Source of the DNA: Anaerolineales bacterium
Lineage (GTDB): Bacteria > Chloroflexota > Anaerolineae > Anaerolineales > UBA11579
Assembly (NCBI GenBank): GCA_019637755.1
Contig: JAHBVC010000001.1
Span: 496,001 to 560,000 of the forward strand
Direction of reading: 5' to 3'
DNA length: 64,000 nucleotides
Position numbers and translations under genes: made by a program. Below are positions 22,628 to 30,991 of this stretch, piece after piece. The notes beneath the pieces were generated by a model, which made no database searches, had not been told where the DNA came from, and was given only the letters and a program-made list of their open reading frames with translations. Numbering within the stretch: position 1 is the stretch's first letter; each line of letters opens with the position of its first letter.

Positions 22628-22727
22628 CCGGCTGGCGGCGGCGATAGCCCGCGGCCAGCGGGCGGCAGACGCTGGCGGTGAAGGAGCATGCTTTGGGGAA
22701 GCGATGCCGAATTATACCGAGGCCCTT

Positions 22728-22855
22728 GCGCAGCCACGATGCGCAGCTACGCTGCGCGGGAGAAGGCTGCGCCTTCTCCATACGGGTACTGTGCGCAGCC
22801 ACGATGCGCAGCTACGCTGCGCGAGAGAAGGCTGCGCCTTCTCCATGCGGTTACT
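22728..22855 (+). repeat. Two 63-bp REP-like hairpin repeats (period 65 bp)
   Basis: Two near-identical copies (22728-22790 and 22793-22855). Each contains two stem-loops: GCGCAGC-tac-GCTGCGC and GAGAAGG-ctgcg-CCTTCTC. They sit directly upstream of the tRNA-Gly promoter. Confidence 0.85.
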
Positions 22856-22873: not shown

Positions 22874-22879
22874 TATAAT
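22874..22879 (+). promoter_or_regulatory. -10 box of the original tRNA-Gly promoter
   Basis: TATAAT, 11 bp before the 5' end of the truncated tRNA-Gly copy. In the present arrangement this promoter reads into the integrase gene rather than into a complete tRNA. Confidence 0.55.
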
Positions 22880-22889
22880 CTAGGCTCCT

Positions 22890-22932
22890 CGCGGGTGTCG
22901 CCAAGTGGTAAGGCACTTGCTTCCCAAGCAAG
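22890..22932 (+). repeat. Left attachment site (attL), 43-bp direct repeat
   Basis: Identical to 30598-30640. It covers the acceptor 5' strand, D-arm and whole anticodon arm of tRNA-Gly; identity stops just after the anticodon stem. Confidence 0.88.
22891..22932 (+). pseudogene. 5' half of tRNA-Gly, cut by integration
   Basis: Matches the first 42 nt of the complete tRNA-Gly at 30599. The variable loop, T-arm and 3' acceptor strand are missing and are replaced by AT-rich element DNA. Confidence 0.88.
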
Positions 22933-22996
22933 CATTCGCTTTCTACCTCTTTCAAATCCCAAAATCAAACAAAACCACCGTAAAACAAGGTGGTTT

Positions 22997-23899
22997 ATGC
23001 TTTCAAACAAGAAAACGCGTGAAGAATGGGCACTTGCTTCAGCAGGTTTACAGGATGCTTATACGGACTTCATACTATCTCGTCAAGCAATTCTGTGCTC
23101 AGAGCAAACAATCAAATGGTACGGGTACACAGCTGGGAACTTCATAGGGTGGCTTAAGGAGAATAACGTAGGCCACCCAGCAGAGATACAGGCTAGGCAT
23201 GTAAGGCTGTTCTTAGCTGAACTGGTTGGCAAGGGGTTGAAAGACAGCTCTGTAAACGGCTATGCAAGATCTATAAAAACGCTTCTGAAATTCCTTCATG
23301 CGGAAGGCTACACACCTATAGAAACCAAGTTTTCAATGCCAGCGGTAGCAAAGAAGCGACTGCCAATCATTACTGCAGAAGAACTAAGGCACATTCTGGC
23401 CTCTACTGGCCTTCGCGATACGGCCCTAATCATGCTATTGGTTGATTCAGGACTAAGAAGAGCCGAACTGTGTGCATTGAATTGGGAAGATATAGATCTA
23501 GAGAATGGTGCAATTCAAGTTCATAGAGGCAAGGGCGGAAAGGCCCGAATTGTGGTAATTGGGGCAAAAACCCGCCGAGCATTGCTACGCTACCGAAGAA
23601 CGATTGAAGCCAAGCACAATTCCCCTGTAATACAAACAAGAGATGGCTTTCGCGTTACATTTGGTGGCCTGCGCTCAATTCTATTAAGAATCAGTAAACG
23701 CACTGGCATTCATATCACTCCCCATGCCCTAAGAAGAACTTTTGCCACCCTTTCACTTCGGGCTGGAATGAACCCCTTGCATTTACAGGGTCTATTAGGC
23801 CACTCATCTCTAGAGATGACCAATCACTATGTTCAGATGCTGGACGATGATCTGCAAGTAGCACATAGAACATTTGGGCCGATAGACAACCACCTGTGA
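22997..23899 (+). CDS. Tyrosine recombinase/integrase
   Basis: 300 aa. N-terminal SAM-like core-binding domain (about 20-105) and catalytic domain with Arg154 (SGLRRAEL), Lys in RGKGGKAR, His243-x-x-Arg246 (PHALRRTF), His269 (LLGHSS) and nucleophile Tyr278 (TNHYVQM): a complete active set. The ATG at 22997 follows an AAGG site; the frame is open further upstream, through attL to a GTG at 22895. It should catalyse integration into tRNA-Gly and excision. Confidence 0.93.
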   Translation: MLSNKKTREEWALASAGLQDAYTDFILSRQAILCSEQTIKWYGYTAGNFIGWLKENNVGHPAEIQARHVRLFLAELVGKGLKDSSVNGYARSIKTLLKFLHAEGYTPIETKFSMPAVAKKRLPIITAEELRHILASTGLRDTALIMLLVDSGLRRAELCALNWEDIDLENGAIQVHRGKGGKARIVVIGAKTRRALLRYRRTIEAKHNSPVIQTRDGFRVTFGGLRSILLRISKRTGIHITPHALRRTFATLSLRAGMNPLHLQGLLGHSSLEMTNHYVQMLDDDLQVAHRTFGPIDNHL

Positions 23900-24503
23900 C
23901 CCCCCCATTGCTACAGAAAATCTGAACTTCAGATTATGGTATCTGCTTGGTTGTGTAGACCGGGGGGCCTCTAGCATTTTCATTACCGCTTCTCGAGGCC
24001 AAATGGTGCATTTGAGGAGCAGAAGATGGATATTGCTCCTATCAAATTGCGCTGGCGATAGGTTGTATTGGAAGCATACAGGCCAAGTTCGCCTGCAATG
24101 GTTATCGGTGGTTTCTCGGTGTGGTTTTCGGGCCTATTTCGGGGTCGATTCGGGCTGTTTCGGAGCCGAAAATGCCAGATCCTTAGTGTTTTGCACCCAA
24201 TTTTATTGTGAAAATGCAATAAAGCCAAGCTTCCCGGGCACAAAAAGTAAGATTTTAGTGGCCTATAGCGTCTATATATAGCTAAAATAGGCACACAAAT
24301 TATTAAAATGGGTCATTTTCTCGAACTTTCAGTATAATTAATATAGAAGATTAAAGTTTAGCTTTTTAGGTTCGCCACCAATAACCACAGCGTAACTGTA
24401 TCCCAACGAGAAATTTAAAATAATAGCTTTTGCTGGGCAAGGCAGCTTATCAGCTGTATTTTGCGTTTAACTTACTTTTATTCAGGAGAATTATGACAAC
24501 ACA
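23900..24503 (+). other. AT-rich non-coding stretch with a possible HNH promoter
   Basis: 604 bp with no convincing gene; short frames at 23983-24294 (-) and 24003-24281 (+) oppose each other and look like chance. TATAAT at 24333-24338 could start a leader of about 160 nt before the HNH gene. In that leader AGGAG (24484-24488) stands before a five-codon frame, ATG to TGA (24493-24507), which overlaps the HNH start as ATGA. Confidence 0.5.
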
Positions 24504-24989
24504 ATGAATACTTTTATTACAAACAAAAATCTAGAAAGGAGATTTTGGTCAAAGGTAGACAAGGGAGCAATTGAAGAGTGCTGGAATTGGACAGGGGCAA
24601 AACAGACAAAGGGTTATGGATCCTTCGGAGTTGGTCCTGGAAAGACTCAATTAGCACATCGAGTGGCATACATGTTAAAGGAGGGGCCAATACCGCGTGG
24701 GCTAGTGATTATGCACATCTGTGATAACAGGCTGTGTTGTAATCCCAGACACCTTAAAGTTGGAACAATTGCGGACAATAATCATGATGCGATCTCAAAG
24801 GGGCGAAATGCAATAGGGGAAAGAAACGGAAATTCAAAACTTACAGAAGAACAAGTGAAGGATATTAGAAAGTTATACGGGACTGGGGATTATACGAACC
24901 GCCAACTGGCACAAATGTATAAAATGAGCGACAGTGCCATTTACTCCATTACTAAAAACAAATACTGGAAACTACCTCTTGCAGGGTAG
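24504..24989 (+). CDS. HNH endonuclease with C-terminal HTH
   Basis: 161 aa. The nuclease core runs AHRVAY (51-56), MHICDNRLCCNPRHLKVGT (70-88) and DNNHDAISKGR (91-101), the HNH pattern of phage and intron-type nucleases. Residues 113-158 resemble a helix-turn-helix (LTEEQVKDIRKLY...NRQLAQMYKMSDSAIYSI), as in homing endonucleases of this class. The ribosome-binding site is 15 nt away, better placed for a mini-frame that overlaps the start. Role in the element unknown: homing, packaging or defence are possible. Confidence 0.85.
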   Translation: MNTFITNKNLERRFWSKVDKGAIEECWNWTGAKQTKGYGSFGVGPGKTQLAHRVAYMLKEGPIPRGLVIMHICDNRLCCNPRHLKVGTIADNNHDAISKGRNAIGERNGNSKLTEEQVKDIRKLYGTGDYTNRQLAQMYKMSDSAIYSITKNKYWKLPLAG

Positions 24990-25550
24990 CCCACAACTAC
25001 AAATTTTCTGGCTAAACTAATACAATGCAATGCCTAGGCTGGAAATGACATATTAAGGGGATAGTAGATACTAGGACTACTCAACAAAGCTAGATGGGAT
25101 TGCACACTCCGTTGGAGGCGGTGGAACTCCGCTGTACCATAAGAGCCAAAACTATTCCAAGTAACCAAAGACACCACCATTCGCTGTAGCGATAGCTAGT
25201 GGACGTAGCGAATTCTGATGAAAAGTCAGAAGCCTTGTTAAGCAGCAATTGGAGAGGCATTTTATAAGCTATGGGGATGATCTCCCTTCTGGGTTTCCTC
25301 AGTTTCTCCCCTCTTTTAGTTCTTAAAGAGTAAGTCAAACGAGGCCATGAGCCAGGAATCCATCCTTCGTTTGCAAGGGTGGATTCCGTCTCCTACCATG
25401 AAGCCTGTTTACCGTTACTATCCCAAGGTTTGATAACAACAATATTTAAGATAGCTAAATTAGACGCACAATAGAGCAGAAAAATCACCATCAGATCTCA
25501 AGTTTAGTGGTTTTGTTGCTAGGTGGGCATAAAGCAAGTTCTACCTCAAC
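24990..25550. other. Non-coding stretch between HNH and RM genes
   Basis: 561 bp, AT-rich. It holds an imperfect inverted repeat ggaatccatcc / gggtggattcc (25355-25387), possibly a terminator, and the left copy of a repeat that flanks the RM gene (25493-25523). An 82-aa frame at 25090-25338 (-) has no visible ribosome-binding site or family match and was not called. Confidence 0.45.
25493..25523 (+). repeat. Short direct repeat left of the RM gene
   Basis: AGATCTCAAGTT (25493-25504) and, a few bases on, TGGTTTTGttgCTAGG. The same two blocks recur in the same order at 30498-30548 on the other side of the RM gene, there separated by about 26 bp. Confidence 0.5.
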
Positions 25551-28500
25551 TCATTCAAACTTTACATCTGGCAGACTGTTTACTATATCTACGGTCTGCA
25601 CACTGACGTTTATAACACTCAGCAACAAATCTAAAATGTAGCTGGGTTTGCCAGCTTCTTTCGCCCAGTCATTGGGATCGTTGGTAATACCGCTTTCCTT
25701 GTGCGTGGTGATCTGGTAACGCTCCATCACCCATTCAATAGCTGATTTGCCATTGACGACGTATTCATAGGCCTTGGCTGGGATGTTAGTGATCTTGATG
25801 TCCTTGTTATAGATGATGGTGTCTTTCTTGTCTTTGGCAGGAAAGCGCATCTTGACTACACGGTAGTAGCCATCCGGCATACCTTGTTTTGTAATCTCAG
25901 GCTGGTGCACTACAGCGCCGTCATAGGGTGGCACCTGCTCATAATCAATGTGCAAATCTGCTAGCTGCCGCCCAGCCCTACTGAATGCCCAGAAGGCAGC
26001 TACATCATCAACCAGTGGAAGCCTGGGCAACTGCATCTTCAGGTCATCTGCAAATGCAGAGCGATAAGTTGGGCTGTGCAGTAATCCGTAGGCATAATAG
26101 AAAACATCCTCTTTGGCTACTAACTTCCCATACTGGCTTTGAGCACGTTTCAGAATGAAATCGGAAATACCGTCCTTCCGGACATAATCACTATTTGCAG
26201 AATCGAAGAGAGTTGGAGATTGCTTGTCTGCTTCTTCATAATAGAACAGCGGAAAGCACTGACCATTTGCCAGAAGTTGCACATCCGGTATTACATTAGA
26301 AATGATAGCCGAAAAATCTTTGTTCCCTCCAACACCAGAAACATAAATCACCAGATTCTCTGAAGTAGAGAGTGGAAACAGTTTTGGAAGTTGGTATGGC
26401 CTGTGGTTGAGCGTATCGTCCCGATATACAAATTGCTTGAAGAAGGGCCGGTATAAGGACTCGCGAATTGCCTGATTGTCAAACTTTAGCTGCACTCCCG
26501 CCTCAAATTTTGCTACCAAGCTACTTGACCACTTGATGGTTCTTTCTTCTGAGCCAATTACGAGCTGATTACCCTTCGCCTCCTTCAAAAATTTCTGATA
26601 CTTCTTGATGAAGTCAGACATAACTTGCGATACTCTTGCAGATGAGGAGCTGTAAACCCAAGCATCTCTATTCGTTTGCAGACCATTGGAAGAGGTGAGG
26701 AAGAACGATCTCTCACTTGAAGAAAATTTCTTCTCTGGCGAAAGTGGAATAAATGTCTCGAATGTGCCGCTGCGCTGTCTCAGCCAATCACCATGCTCAT
26801 TGGGATTAATCTCCTGCCAAGCAATTTGCGGATTAGCTACAGAGCCAAATTTGGCAATGGTGTTTAGTTTTTCTTCTCTTGAAAGATAGTCCCCAATGTC
26901 ATGATAATGAATGCTGGCTTTGTCTAATTGGCTTTTCGGATTTTTTACCAGCAAGGTGACTGCCACAGGTGCACGCGATCCTGCGCCAAAAATCTTGCCA
27001 CCTTCTTTTTTGCTCAATTCCCCACTGGTTCGCTGATTCCCTCTCAAATTGAAGACCCAAATGCTCGAAAACTCAGTCTCGACAGTTTTGCGAAAGCCGT
27101 CAGCACTATTGCTATCCAGCCATGAGCCGTTGGAAACAAAAGCGATTACCCCGCCATGCTCTGGATCCAAGCGATCACTGGCCCAACGGAATGCGCGAAT
27201 ATATGAGTCATAGAGAGAATTCTTGTTGGTTGCTTTGGTTGCCTTGGCATATGTCTCAGCAATGCGAGCATCCAGATTTGAGTATTTTTGATTTTGCGCA
27301 TTGTCGTTGGCTGACCGCTGCCCAACTGAATATGGAGGATTGCCAACAATTACCCGAATAGGCGTGGATTTTTGCTTGGCCACCCTCTCTGAATTGCGAG
27401 GGAAGACGGACATATCCATCACTCCGCCCTCGCCAGCGGCAATCTCACTCAGTTGAAAACTGTCTGTAAGAACAATACCTTCAAAGGGCACATAAGAGGC
27501 TTCAGTCCCTAGCAAGTCATGGTAGACATTCTCGATATTGACAGCCGCGATGTAATATGCAAGCAAGACAATCTCGTTGGCATGTATCTCATATTGATAC
27601 TTGCGAGCAAGGTCCTTTTTGTCTATCAGGCCGCTTTGGAGCAAGCGAGCAACGAATGTTCCTGTACCCGTAAACGGGTCCAGAACATGGACATTTTCGT
27701 CCGAAAGGCTACGACCAAATTCCTGCTTCAAAACATCTTGCACGGAACGAACAATGAAATCAACAACTTCTGGCGGTGTGTACACAATGCCCAGCTGCTC
27801 TACCATGCGTGGAAATGCCGTTTTGAAGAACTTCTCATATAACTCAACGATCACCTGCTGTTTACCTTCTGCGTTGTCAATTCCAGCGACGCGCTGTTTC
27901 ACCGATTCATAGAACCGTTGAAGAGAATCAGATTCCTCAGCGACCGCCTGGCCATGCAGGACATCTAGCATGGATTGCATAGATTGGGAAACAGCATTGT
28001 TCTTGACAAAAGAATAGTTATCAAACAGTGCCTCAAATATTGGCTGGGTGATCATGTGCTGAGCCAGCATTTCTACAGCCTGAGCATCATCAATACTGGG
28101 ATTGATATTGGCCTGCAAGCCTTTCAAAAAAGCATCAAAGGCAGAACGCTGTTCTTTGCGCTCAGTAATCAGGAATTTAATCCTCTCAATTTGCTGCTCG
28201 GCAATTTTGGCAACATCCTTGGCCCACTGTTCCCAATAGAGACGATCCCCTACCTTCTCCACCATGCGGGCAAATACAATGCTTTGTAATTCCTCAAACT
28301 GCATTCGCAGTTGGTGAGCAACATTACCAACTTGATATTCGGCAGTAGTTTCACTAATTTGGTGTGGCCGCCCATCGTCTTGGTCAAAAATGGTTTCGGG
28401 TCTGCCTACCAATATCTGGTTAGGACGAGTTTTATTGAGGTCAATCTTATTGATCGTGGCATTAAAGCGGTCATCGTGCGCTCTCAAGGCATTGAGCACT

Positions 28501-30413
28501 GTCCAGACCACTTTGTACCGTTCGTTATCATCCAAGGCTTGGGCAGCGTCTACATCTGGGGGCACCACCACTGGGATAATAATGTAGCCATATTTCTTGC
28601 CAGGTGATTTGCGCATCACTCGTCCTACGGATTGCACAACATCCACCTGTGAATTGCGGGCAGACAAGAACATCACGGCATCCAAAGAAGGCACATCTAC
28701 GCCCTCGCTCAGTACACGCACATTGGTCAGGATACGGCATTCATTGGCATCACCGGTTTCCTGAAGCCAAGCGAGCATTTCGTCCCTTTCAGGAGCGGCC
28801 ATCGTTCCATCAATGTGCTTCGCCGCGATACTGACCATCTCTTCTTTTTTGTCAGCAGGTAAAGCATTCAAGTACACATCAGTTACATCATTATAGGTAT
28901 TGGTGATTTTTCTGGAAATCTTGATACTTTGGGTGAAGGCGACTGCCCTACGCATTGGTTCTGGGTCAGCATCCTTGGTAATCCCTTGATCCCCTAAGAA
29001 TTGCTTAGAAAGGGCATTTATCGTTCCAATTAGCTTTGAGGCATCATCGGCATTGATCTCTGATTTTTCATCAGTAATCATTTGCCAAATCGCTGGAGGC
29101 ACATCTTTATTGTCTACGGTCAGGATCAGGACTTTGTAATCCGTCAGCAAGTCTTTTTCAACGGCTTCACCAAAGCCAATACGGTAAATCTCTTCGCCAT
29201 ATACCTTAGCATCATCCATAGACCACAATAACGCAGCCACTTGAGAAGCTCTACTCTTGCTGTCATCACTATACAAGCGAGGAGTGGCGGTCATATACAA
29301 CCGCTTTGTAGCCTTAATGAACTTGCTGTCATGCACCTTTACAAAAGCAGATTCATCCTCATCGGCCAGTTTGACACCTGTAGTGCGATGAGCTTCATCA
29401 CAGATAATGAGGTCAAATTCCCCAAAACCATCACGGAGAAGAACCTTCTGAGCCTTGGAAACCACTTCAATGGAGTGGTAGGTAGAGAACACCACTGTCA
29501 TCCCGGGCAGCTTCCTGTCCCTGATTTGCTGAAACTGAAGCAGGATGTCCTTGGTGTCTGTAGAAGCAGGGAAGGCCAGATCTATGACGCTGGAGGCATC
29601 AACATCTTCATTTCTGCCTTTTTGCTTAGTAACCTTAGGGTCTGAGCAAATTGCAATTGCGTTGATTGGTTGATTGGCATCTGCCATCCATGCCCGCAGG
29701 GTTTGCCCCAACAATGCAATACTGGGCACAAGAAAGAGGATTGTTCCTTGACCCTTGGTTTCATGCTCAGCAATACGGAGGGAGGTGAGGGTTTTGCCCG
29801 TCCCACAAGCCATAATCAGCTTGCCACGATCGGCTGTTTTGTAATACTCGTGAGCCTTCTCTAGTGCTGTTTGCTGATGTTTGAATAGCGTCTTTGGTGC
29901 AGTGCGAGAGAGCTCACCATGCACACCTTGGTCAAGCTTCTGCCAGTCAACAGGAGCCTGGCTTAGGTCGCTAAGGTTTAGGCGGCTGACAGGGGGTTTC
30001 TGGTTCCTGATAGCCTCTGTAGCATTCCTGCTCCACTTGTTTGTTGTAGAAATCCACAATCTGTGAGCAAAGGATCTGGTTAGTAGATTGTCATCCTTGA
30101 ATTCACGGCTGGATGTAGAAAGAAAGGTATCAACAGATGCCTTATCAATGCCAGTGGTCTCATCAAAGAACTTGCATTGAATTGCCCAGTATTCCCCCTC
30201 AACAGTCAGGGCAACAAGGTCAATGCCTGCATCAATGCCCCCAAGATCAGCTCGGTAAGGGAATTCGGACCATAACCACACCTTGCTAAAGCGGTCAGCA
30301 TATGTGCGGTCAGTGAGCAGGTAAGCCTGCATCAACCGCTCAAAGCGATCCCCCTTGTCACGCTTGCTAAAGGCTAGCTTTTGGTATTTATCAAGGATGG
30401 ATTTGAATGACAA
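25551..30413 (-). CDS. Single-chain type ISP-like restriction-modification enzyme
   Basis: 1620 aa with all functions in one chain, as in LlaGI/LlaBIII. N-terminal Mrr-like nuclease: Asp65 and Gln79-x-Lys81 (YWAIQCK). SF2 helicase/translocase: ACGTGKT at 202-208, DEAH at 339-342, QSVGRVMRK at 594-602. Central helical coupler (about 700-870). N6-adenine methyltransferase: LDPFTGTGTF at 911-920 and NPPY at 1025-1028. The C-terminal 400 residues should hold target recognition. Such enzymes methylate one strand of an asymmetric site, translocate and cut. TTG start preceded by GAGGG. All catalytic motifs look intact, so it is probably active. Confidence 0.93.
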   Translation of the reverse strand: MSFKSILDKYQKLAFSKRDKGDRFERLMQAYLLTDRTYADRFSKVWLWSEFPYRADLGGIDAGIDLVALTVEGEYWAIQCKFFDETTGIDKASVDTFLSTSSREFKDDNLLTRSFAHRLWISTTNKWSRNATEAIRNQKPPVSRLNLSDLSQAPVDWQKLDQGVHGELSRTAPKTLFKHQQTALEKAHEYYKTADRGKLIMACGTGKTLTSLRIAEHETKGQGTILFLVPSIALLGQTLRAWMADANQPINAIAICSDPKVTKQKGRNEDVDASSVIDLAFPASTDTKDILLQFQQIRDRKLPGMTVVFSTYHSIEVVSKAQKVLLRDGFGEFDLIICDEAHRTTGVKLADEDESAFVKVHDSKFIKATKRLYMTATPRLYSDDSKSRASQVAALLWSMDDAKVYGEEIYRIGFGEAVEKDLLTDYKVLILTVDNKDVPPAIWQMITDEKSEINADDASKLIGTINALSKQFLGDQGITKDADPEPMRRAVAFTQSIKISRKITNTYNDVTDVYLNALPADKKEEMVSIAAKHIDGTMAAPERDEMLAWLQETGDANECRILTNVRVLSEGVDVPSLDAVMFLSARNSQVDVVQSVGRVMRKSPGKKYGYIIIPVVVPPDVDAAQALDDNERYKVVWTVLNALRAHDDRFNATINKIDLNKTRPNQILVGRPETIFDQDDGRPHQISETTAEYQVGNVAHQLRMQFEELQSIVFARMVEKVGDRLYWEQWAKDVAKIAEQQIERIKFLITERKEQRSAFDAFLKGLQANINPSIDDAQAVEMLAQHMITQPIFEALFDNYSFVKNNAVSQSMQSMLDVLHGQAVAEESDSLQRFYESVKQRVAGIDNAEGKQQVIVELYEKFFKTAFPRMVEQLGIVYTPPEVVDFIVRSVQDVLKQEFGRSLSDENVHVLDPFTGTGTFVARLLQSGLIDKKDLARKYQYEIHANEIVLLAYYIAAVNIENVYHDLLGTEASYVPFEGIVLTDSFQLSEIAAGEGGVMDMSVFPRNSERVAKQKSTPIRVIVGNPPYSVGQRSANDNAQNQKYSNLDARIAETYAKATKATNKNSLYDSYIRAFRWASDRLDPEHGGVIAFVSNGSWLDSNSADGFRKTVETEFSSIWVFNLRGNQRTSGELSKKEGGKIFGAGSRAPVAVTLLVKNPKSQLDKASIHYHDIGDYLSREEKLNTIAKFGSVANPQIAWQEINPNEHGDWLRQRSGTFETFIPLSPEKKFSSSERSFFLTSSNGLQTNRDAWVYSSSSARVSQVMSDFIKKYQKFLKEAKGNQLVIGSEERTIKWSSSLVAKFEAGVQLKFDNQAIRESLYRPFFKQFVYRDDTLNHRPYQLPKLFPLSTSENLVIYVSGVGGNKDFSAIISNVIPDVQLLANGQCFPLFYYEEADKQSPTLFDSANSDYVRKDGISDFILKRAQSQYGKLVAKEDVFYYAYGLLHSPTYRSAFADDLKMQLPRLPLVDDVAAFWAFSRAGRQLADLHIDYEQVPPYDGAVVHQPEITKQGMPDGYYRVVKMRFPAKDKKDTIIYNKDIKITNIPAKAYEYVVNGKSAIEWVMERYQITTHKESGITNDPNDWAKEAGKPSYILDLLLSVINVSVQTVDIVNSLPDVKFE

Positions 30414-30497
30414 TGGATTCCCTCAGAACTGGATGTATTCGAAGGATTATACATTGGGGAAGAATTCTCGCCTTTCTTGTATGCTGATACATATCAA

Positions 30498-30548
30498 AGA
30501 TCTCAAGTTAGTTATAATTAAGGCACTAGCTTAGGTGGTTTTGCTAGG
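30498..30548 (+). repeat. Short direct repeat right of the RM gene
   Basis: Right-hand copy of the 25493 repeat: AGATCTCAAGTT (30498-30509) and TGGTTTTGCTAGG (30536-30548). The pair encloses the RM gene and its promoter region. Confidence 0.5.
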
Positions 30549-30597
30549 GATTTAGGTACTCATTGCAACAAAAGTACCTGTGAAAATTGAGTAGATA

Positions 30598-30640
30598 CGC
30601 GGGTGTCGCCAAGTGGTAAGGCACTTGCTTCCCAAGCAAG
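30598..30640 (+). repeat. Right attachment site (attR), 43-bp direct repeat
   Basis: Identical to 22890-22932. It supplies the 5' half of the rebuilt tRNA-Gly gene. The 30555-30578 region just outside has the inverted repeat GGTACT / AGTACC, a possible recombinase arm site. Confidence 0.88.
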
Positions 30641-30670
30641 TATGCGTGGGTTCGAATCCCATCACCCGCT
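30599..30670 (+). tRNA. tRNA-Gly (anticodon CCC)
   Basis: 72 nt. Acceptor GCGGGTG / CACCCGC with T discriminator; D-arm GCC...GGC; anticodon stem CTTGC / GCAAG with loop TTCCCAA, reading CCC; T-arm GTGGG-TTCGAAT-CCCAT. Its 5' half comes from the integrated element and its 3' half from the original gene. No strong promoter is seen immediately upstream; TATAAT at 30513-30518 is the nearest. Confidence 0.95.
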
Positions 30671-30965
30671 CTGAAATCAGCGAGCGTAATGTGAAGTCAG
30701 CGTAGTGCTGCCGAAGCGTAGCTTCGGCCTAAACGAGCGCAGCGAGCGTAGCACCCACTCTGAAGTCAGTGCGGCCCTGCCGAAGCGTAGCTTCGGCATA
30801 AGCGAGCGCAGCGAGCGTAGCACCCACTCTGAAGTCAGTGCGGCCCTGCCGAAGCGTAGCTTCGGCATAAGCGAGCGCAGCGAGCGTAGCACCCACTCTG
30901 AAGTCAGTGCGGCCCTGCCGAAGCGTAGCTTCGGCATAAGCGAGCGCAGCGAGCGTAGCAACCAC
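30671..30965 (+). repeat. 69-bp tandem hairpin repeats between tRNA-Gly and pyk
   Basis: Four copies with a 69-bp period; the first is diverged, the last three are nearly identical. Each holds the perfect stem-loop GCCGAAGC-gta-GCTTCGGC and a GAGCGCAGCGAGCG segment. Each unit also contains CACCCACTCTGAAGTCAG, which matches the tRNA 3' end and flank (30663-30680) at 16 of 18 bases. The period is a multiple of three, so frames stay open on both strands without coding. Confidence 0.88.
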
Positions 30966-30991
30966 TTGCCTTGTAGCGGGTTATAAACTCA

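Follow-up and report, generated by a model that had tools for sequence, protein, structure and literature searches.

A 64,000-nucleotide (nt) window of an Anaerolineales genome (2.26 Mb, assembled in two contigs) contained a 7,708-bp element, integrated in a tRNA-Gly(CCC) gene, that restored the 5' half of its target; judged by sequence comparison, the restored half has switched repeatedly in evolution among close relatives of its integrase (Int). All coordinates for the element are positions in this window. The best joint explanation, to which a probability of approximately 0.8 is given, is a small integrative element with a XerC-like Int belonging to an arm-less clade, in which crossover would occur in the anticodon loop, polarity (i.e., the half that is restored) would switch freely and the defence cargo would be exchangeable. 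This was preferred because of the perfect repeats with an intact int, an empty site in G004, relatives in G001 and G010, the mixture of polarities in one clade, the CFX6 and G279 pair, the overlap of repeats at nt 29-42 of the tRNA, the arm-binding domain not being found, and the swapped cargo.

The boundaries were perfect 43-bp direct repeats spaced 7,708 bp apart and covering the 5' half of tRNA-Gly, just as the initial annotation had claimed (coordinates are given in Table 1). The AT-rich segment it described between them was also evident, with G-C content falling from approximately 0.61-0.64 outside the element to 0.41-0.50 inside. ARAGORN identified an intact tRNA-Gly(CCC) at the right; the left copy comprised the 5' half only, ended after the anticodon stem and produced no ARAGORN call, while the Rfam tRNA model scored it at 32.9 bits against 68.1 bits for the intact gene. 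The Rfam search of the element recovered only these two tRNA copies and no other known RNA. A perfect repeat of 43 bp whose end falls at the anticodon stem greatly exceeds anything expected by chance.

The native and element-borne sides were distinguished through comparison with congeners, chiefly G004. This genome, of the same genus, provided the empty site that the earlier description had proposed to seek: a single tRNA-Gly, with TATAAT directly 5' of it, lay between homologues of the left flank of the window (22603 and below) and pyruvate kinase (pyk, 30992 on). Since the native TATAAT was on the left in the window, the promoter and 5' half at that end belong to the chromosome. So does the 3' half adjoining pyk, and therefore the intact right copy owes its 5' half to the element. 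In agreement with a native 3' half, the right-hand tRNA had the variable loop TATGC(G), unlike the element-side CATTC(G), six further tRNA-like bases following the left core in the element's own DNA; CATTC matched the variable loop of tRNA-Gly in G004, G006, G007, G008, G009 and G010. By this comparison, the element supplies the intact tRNA with both a 5' half and the DNA upstream of it, and the native promoter stays at the left end. The Islander definition of a tRNA-integrated island (PMC4383910) comprises an intact tRNA gene (tDNA) plus an end fragment in the same orientation, a 5' fragment lying upstream, with an integrase inside and a length of 2-200 kb; each of these features was present, as was an element-free state. 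In G007 and G008 (L067, L068, L085 and L086), approximately 13 kb of extra DNA separated tRNA-Gly(CCC) from the left flank genes and contained neither a tRNA fragment nor a relative of the window int.

Polarity was compared across ten bounded insertions with an intact tRNA, with repeat spans expressed in tRNA numbering (where 0 is the base before the tRNA). Six restored the 5' half: the window element (0 to 42), the elements of G001 in its CCC and TCC genes (0 to 45 and -3 to 48), CFX6 (Gly CCC; -1 to 59), G634 (Arg; -14 to 58) and G660 (Pro; -22 to 43). Four restored the 3' half: G279 (Gly CCC; 29 to 128), G727 (Pro; 28 to 79), G655, which is Anaerolinea thermolimosa (Val; 28 to 75), and G038 (Gly CCC; 17 to 76). 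The overlap common to all ten repeats was nt 29-42 only, corresponding to the anticodon loop and some of the stem; therefore, one shared crossover at this position would fit every case, which supports the anticodon-arm crossover suggested in the initial annotation. In each of the ten, int was on the tRNA strand and downstream of the 5' part. The G660 repeat took in the -10 box, and so this element carried a piece of promoter along with the 5' half. Anaerolineales integrases that were 44-66% identical to the window int were located just 3' of a tRNA or its 5' part, on the same strand. The exception was L105 (9870-10237), a partial int relative beside tRNA-Leu on the opposite strand, which was left out of the polarity classification.

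The integrase tree required at least three polarity changes for the bounded cases, and eight when the count also took in cases whose polarity was inferred from whether the int-side tRNA was whole or broken. Compared with 159 of 3,919 tRNA-integrated islands with a 5' tDNA fragment in Islander (PMC4383910), six of ten was a significant excess (Fisher p = 9e-7), with the reservation that the ten are relatives of one another and were not sampled at random. CFX6 (= G761) and G279 belong to one genus and their integrases were sisters (support 100/100; 70% identical); their tRNA-Gly genes were orthologous, with both flanks aligning at 76-78%, and at this same gene CFX6 restored the 5' half and G279 the 3' half. 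Within the window's own genus, the tRNA-Gly(CCC) of G003 was intact, and after it came a 48-bp fragment of the 3' part, from the anticodon stem onwards, with a repeat spacing of 125 bp; this fragment resembles a scar left by a 3'-type element that inserted at the same gene. The balance of evidence tips towards a wider proposition, that in this arm-less clade the restored half is not a property of the integrase and flips between sisters with orientation unreversed, such that in 5'-type elements the host tRNA promoter would pass to int, and an element promoter to the host tRNA.

Related elements in the genus indicated that int and the HNH gene were constant while the defence genes were exchangeable. 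The congener G001 (public metagenome-assembled genome 'Anaerolineales bacterium TGS_CHL6', JAHCIJ010000001.1) had a 13,214-bp element in the same tRNA-Gly(CCC) gene, with a 46-bp repeat and the same 5' duplication; identity to the window was 66% for int, 53% for HNH and 87% for the restriction-modification (R-M) gene. A second G001 element (11,870 bp, 52-bp repeat) occupied tRNA-Gly(TCC), and the tRNA-Gly(TCC) of G010 held two such elements arranged in tandem; the R-M gene of the first was 81% identical to that of the window. HNH copies, 52-60% identical, adjoined int in all elements of the genus. R-M genes were 81-87% identical between elements whose ints were only 57-66% identical; therefore, cargo and int appear to have been shuffled. 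The G001-CCC element and the first G010 element additionally encoded a PD-(D/E)xK nuclease, a UvrD helicase matching GajB models and a 679-681-aa protein; this trio beside the R-M gene (G001 L084, 607-5654; also G010) is possibly another defence system. In the G001 TCC element (L220, 6278-13280), a 2,117-aa Avs3a-like protein and an Avs3b-like partner took the place of the R-M gene. Both members of the G010 tandem pair (L221, 1676 onward) were 5'-type, with ints 92% identical, and the second extended to the contig end. The CFX6 (L104, 11326-12261), G279 and G727 elements had a second tyrosine recombinase after int, 74-80% identical among them.

Under the preferred explanation, Int would recombine attP with the anticodon loop of the tRNA, and int would end up downstream of the tRNA 5' part. 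In the window lineage, the int-distal attP arm would hold a copy of the tRNA 5' half, so that, on integration, int would acquire the native promoter and 5' half as neighbours, and a complete tRNA preceded by element DNA would be re-formed at the opposite end. Sister lineages would have the 3' half in the int-proximal arm instead. The predicted attP junction runs from the right tip (ending at 30597) through the 43-bp core into CATTCGCTTTC. Int probably requires the short anticodon core alone, leaving both attP arms free to carry a tRNA piece; because of this, a working tRNA could be supplied from either side and polarity would switch easily. Several att repeats exceeded the length needed, which fits a route in which a near-complete tRNA copy was perhaps captured in attP and one half lost later. 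An element with a more distant integrase (G225; L078, 2895-2977 and 9906-9988) had a complete tRNA-Arg(TCT) at each end in an 83-bp perfect repeat, and is a possible model of a whole-tRNA intermediate. The host genome retained tRNA-Gly(TCC) and tRNA-Gly(GCC) genes elsewhere, and so the cell may tolerate being briefly without the CCC tRNA. The exchangeable cargo would serve in anti-phage defence.

The element ends had signals that could participate in this process. In right tips of both polarities, a -10-like box preceded a half-site that matched nt 19-31 of the element's own target, mostly approximately 75 nt before the att repeat; the half-site match was strong in the window, G001, G010 and G038, and weaker in CFX6 (at -45) and G279. 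In the circular form this probably acts as the int promoter, with a candidate Int-binding site; in 5'-type elements it ends up before the rebuilt tRNA and would probably drive it after integration. The promoter search reported no consensus sigma-70 promoter for the right tip, and this possibility was rejected. At the left end, a hairpin was found at or adjoining the int start codon in nearly all clade members, and at the matching place in relatives both-sided changes occurred in 4/8 pairs; it may terminate tRNA transcripts and conceal the int ribosome site.

Several observations weigh against this explanation. Some polarity calls relied on contigs that ended before the far att site, and polarity was inferred for G664, G695, G719, G721 and G636, whose contigs end inside the element. 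The half-site match was not significant in G727, G655, G634 and G660, and no consensus -35 accompanied the right-tip TATAAT. Boundaries, empty site, polarity and the integrase tree were read from the sequence itself; circle, transcription and activity were not observed, and mobility, crossover position and promoter use were deduced.

The alternative that survives best, although unlikely, accepts the same origin and holds that the element in the window genome is now immobile: there were only three genes, and neither an excisionase nor a transfer gene was recognisable among them. Yet int was complete with its catalytic residues, the repeats were perfect, and the disparity in identity between R-M genes and ints suggests recent exchange. 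It is improbable that this was a usual 3'-restoring element with a decayed int-side tRNA and the right-hand tRNA as an extra cargo gene; relatives with whole int-side tRNAs do restore the 3' half and CATTCG at the left end resembles the start of a lost 3' half, but the right-hand 3' half stood directly before pyk, as in congeners, its variable loop differed from the element-side bases, and a whole right copy with a broken left copy recurred in six independent bounded elements. Ordinary duplication can yield partial tRNA copies, but a long-standing partial duplicate of tRNA-Gly that merely encloses unrelated genes, with no mobile element involved, is very improbable: an intact int adjoins the repeat, the same junctions recur in related elements at two different tRNA genes, G-C content is low inside, and the empty site in G004 together with the recurrence of int-bounded elements refutes it. 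The empty site also led to the rejection of a tandem tRNA duplication.

Restoration of the 3' half is the usual state, and is commonly explained by the host tRNA retaining its own promoter. A clade that restores either half, even at one gene in one genus, makes that explanation testable with matched pairs such as G279 and CFX6. Restoration of the 5' half is itself already known; the unusual part is the switching of polarity within one integrase clade. A 2002 paper by Zhao and Williams (J Bacteriol 184:859), cited in PMC6563490, reportedly describes recombination between a bacterial element and the 5' part of the gene it targets. By its title, the orientation of the target was reversed, whereas here int keeps the usual orientation with respect to the tRNA, and what varies is solely the half that is restored. 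No report of a polarity switch between sister integrases with unchanged orientation was found in the open literature, a search outside which two key 2002 papers fell, and the switch is likely, but not proven, to be new.

The initial annotation observed that the repeated part is the 5' half, unlike many elements that restore the 3' end, and this is a known minority state (PMC4383910, PMC8371274, PMC6563490). Islander islands with 5' fragments share with the window an intact tRNA and same-orientation 5' fragment, an integrase between them and an anticodon-type crossover; here, however, polarity varied between sister integrases and six of the ten bounded elements were 5'-type. The 5' half is also restored in pTN3-type archaeal elements (PMC5495485, PMC8371274) and in one thaumarchaeal element (PMC6563490). 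Like the former, the window element separates the rebuilt tRNA from its original promoter, but pTN3 integration disrupts its own integrase gene, whereas the window int stays whole between the att copies, its host is bacterial and its integrase XerC-like. Small defence-carrying elements of this kind would escape searches for 3' tRNA fragments alone.

Table 1. Features of the element and its boundaries in the 64,000-nt window
Feature	Position	Strand	Evidence
-10 box TATAAT of native tRNA-Gly promoter, now 5' of the 5' half and int	22874-22879	+	Matching layout in G004 uninterrupted tRNA and G001 left end
Left att copy on native side, comprising tRNA-Gly(CCC) 5' half	22890-22932	+	43-bp perfect repeat; Rfam partial tRNA match
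CATTCG, element-borne remnant of tRNA variable loop	22933-22938	+	Fits congener tRNA-Gly, unlike native TATGCG on right
Hairpin, 8 bp, ending at int start codon; 3' arm holds GGTGG, likely ribosome-binding site	22972-22996	+	z = -3.6; conserved position in relatives
int, XerC-like tyrosine integrase, 300 aa	22997-23899	+	PF00589 4e-31; catalytic residues intact
HNH endonuclease, C-terminal helix-turn-helix-like part, 161 aa	24504-24989	+	PF13392; PHROG HNH and HTH families
Type ISP R-M enzyme, LlaBIII/LlaGI-like, 1,620 aa	25551-30413	-	Domain matches; 4xqk 1,259 bits
Right tip: TATAAT (30513-30518), then TAAGGCACTAGCT, 12/13 matches to tRNA-Gly(CCC) nt 19-31	30513-30531	+	Matches the target in the genus's CCC and TCC elements alike
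Right att copy, element-borne 5' half	30598-30640	+	43-bp perfect repeat
Restored intact tRNA-Gly(CCC), element 5' half and native 3' half	30599-30671	+	ARAGORN call; G004 comparison; Rfam score

The gene content agreed with what had been described at the outset, namely an intact tyrosine recombinase, an HNH nuclease with a helix-turn-helix (HTH) part and one giant R-M gene, and the set was located again at tRNA-Gly genes of G001 (CCC) and G010 (TCC). Int belonged to the tyrosine recombinases, comprising a SAM-like core-binding domain and a catalytic domain with R-K-H-R-H-Y residues retained; searches with domain-family and Xer models found no arm-binding domain. It scored 167, 138 and 127 bits against the XerC, XerD and XerA housekeeping recombinase models, below their curated equivalog cut-offs of 220, 335 and 330. 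Close viral relatives were rejected, the best being only approximately 30% identical over most of the protein. The R-M enzyme had Mrr_cat_2, ResIII, Helicase_C, N6_Mtase, ISP_coupler and Type_ISP_C domains, thus combining nuclease, translocase, coupler, methylase and specificity functions in a single chain; all domains were present and it resembled LlaBIII (4xqk, full-length match) and LlaGI (5ffj) over nearly its full length. By sequence it is plainly an ordinary Type ISP member, differing from these in being carried on a chromosomal integrative element.

The open reading frames included no recognisable replication, capsid or transfer genes, as previously claimed. Only int, HNH and R-M were recognisable, with neither the relaxase or type IV secretion genes of an integrative and conjugative element, nor the capsid, packaging or phage-interference genes of a prophage or phage satellite. 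A repeat search of the element spacers gave no clear iterons or origin. The chromosomal flanks at both ends of the element (30692-30966 and 22727-22855) contained tandem repeats of 69 bp and 65 bp that included short palindromes.
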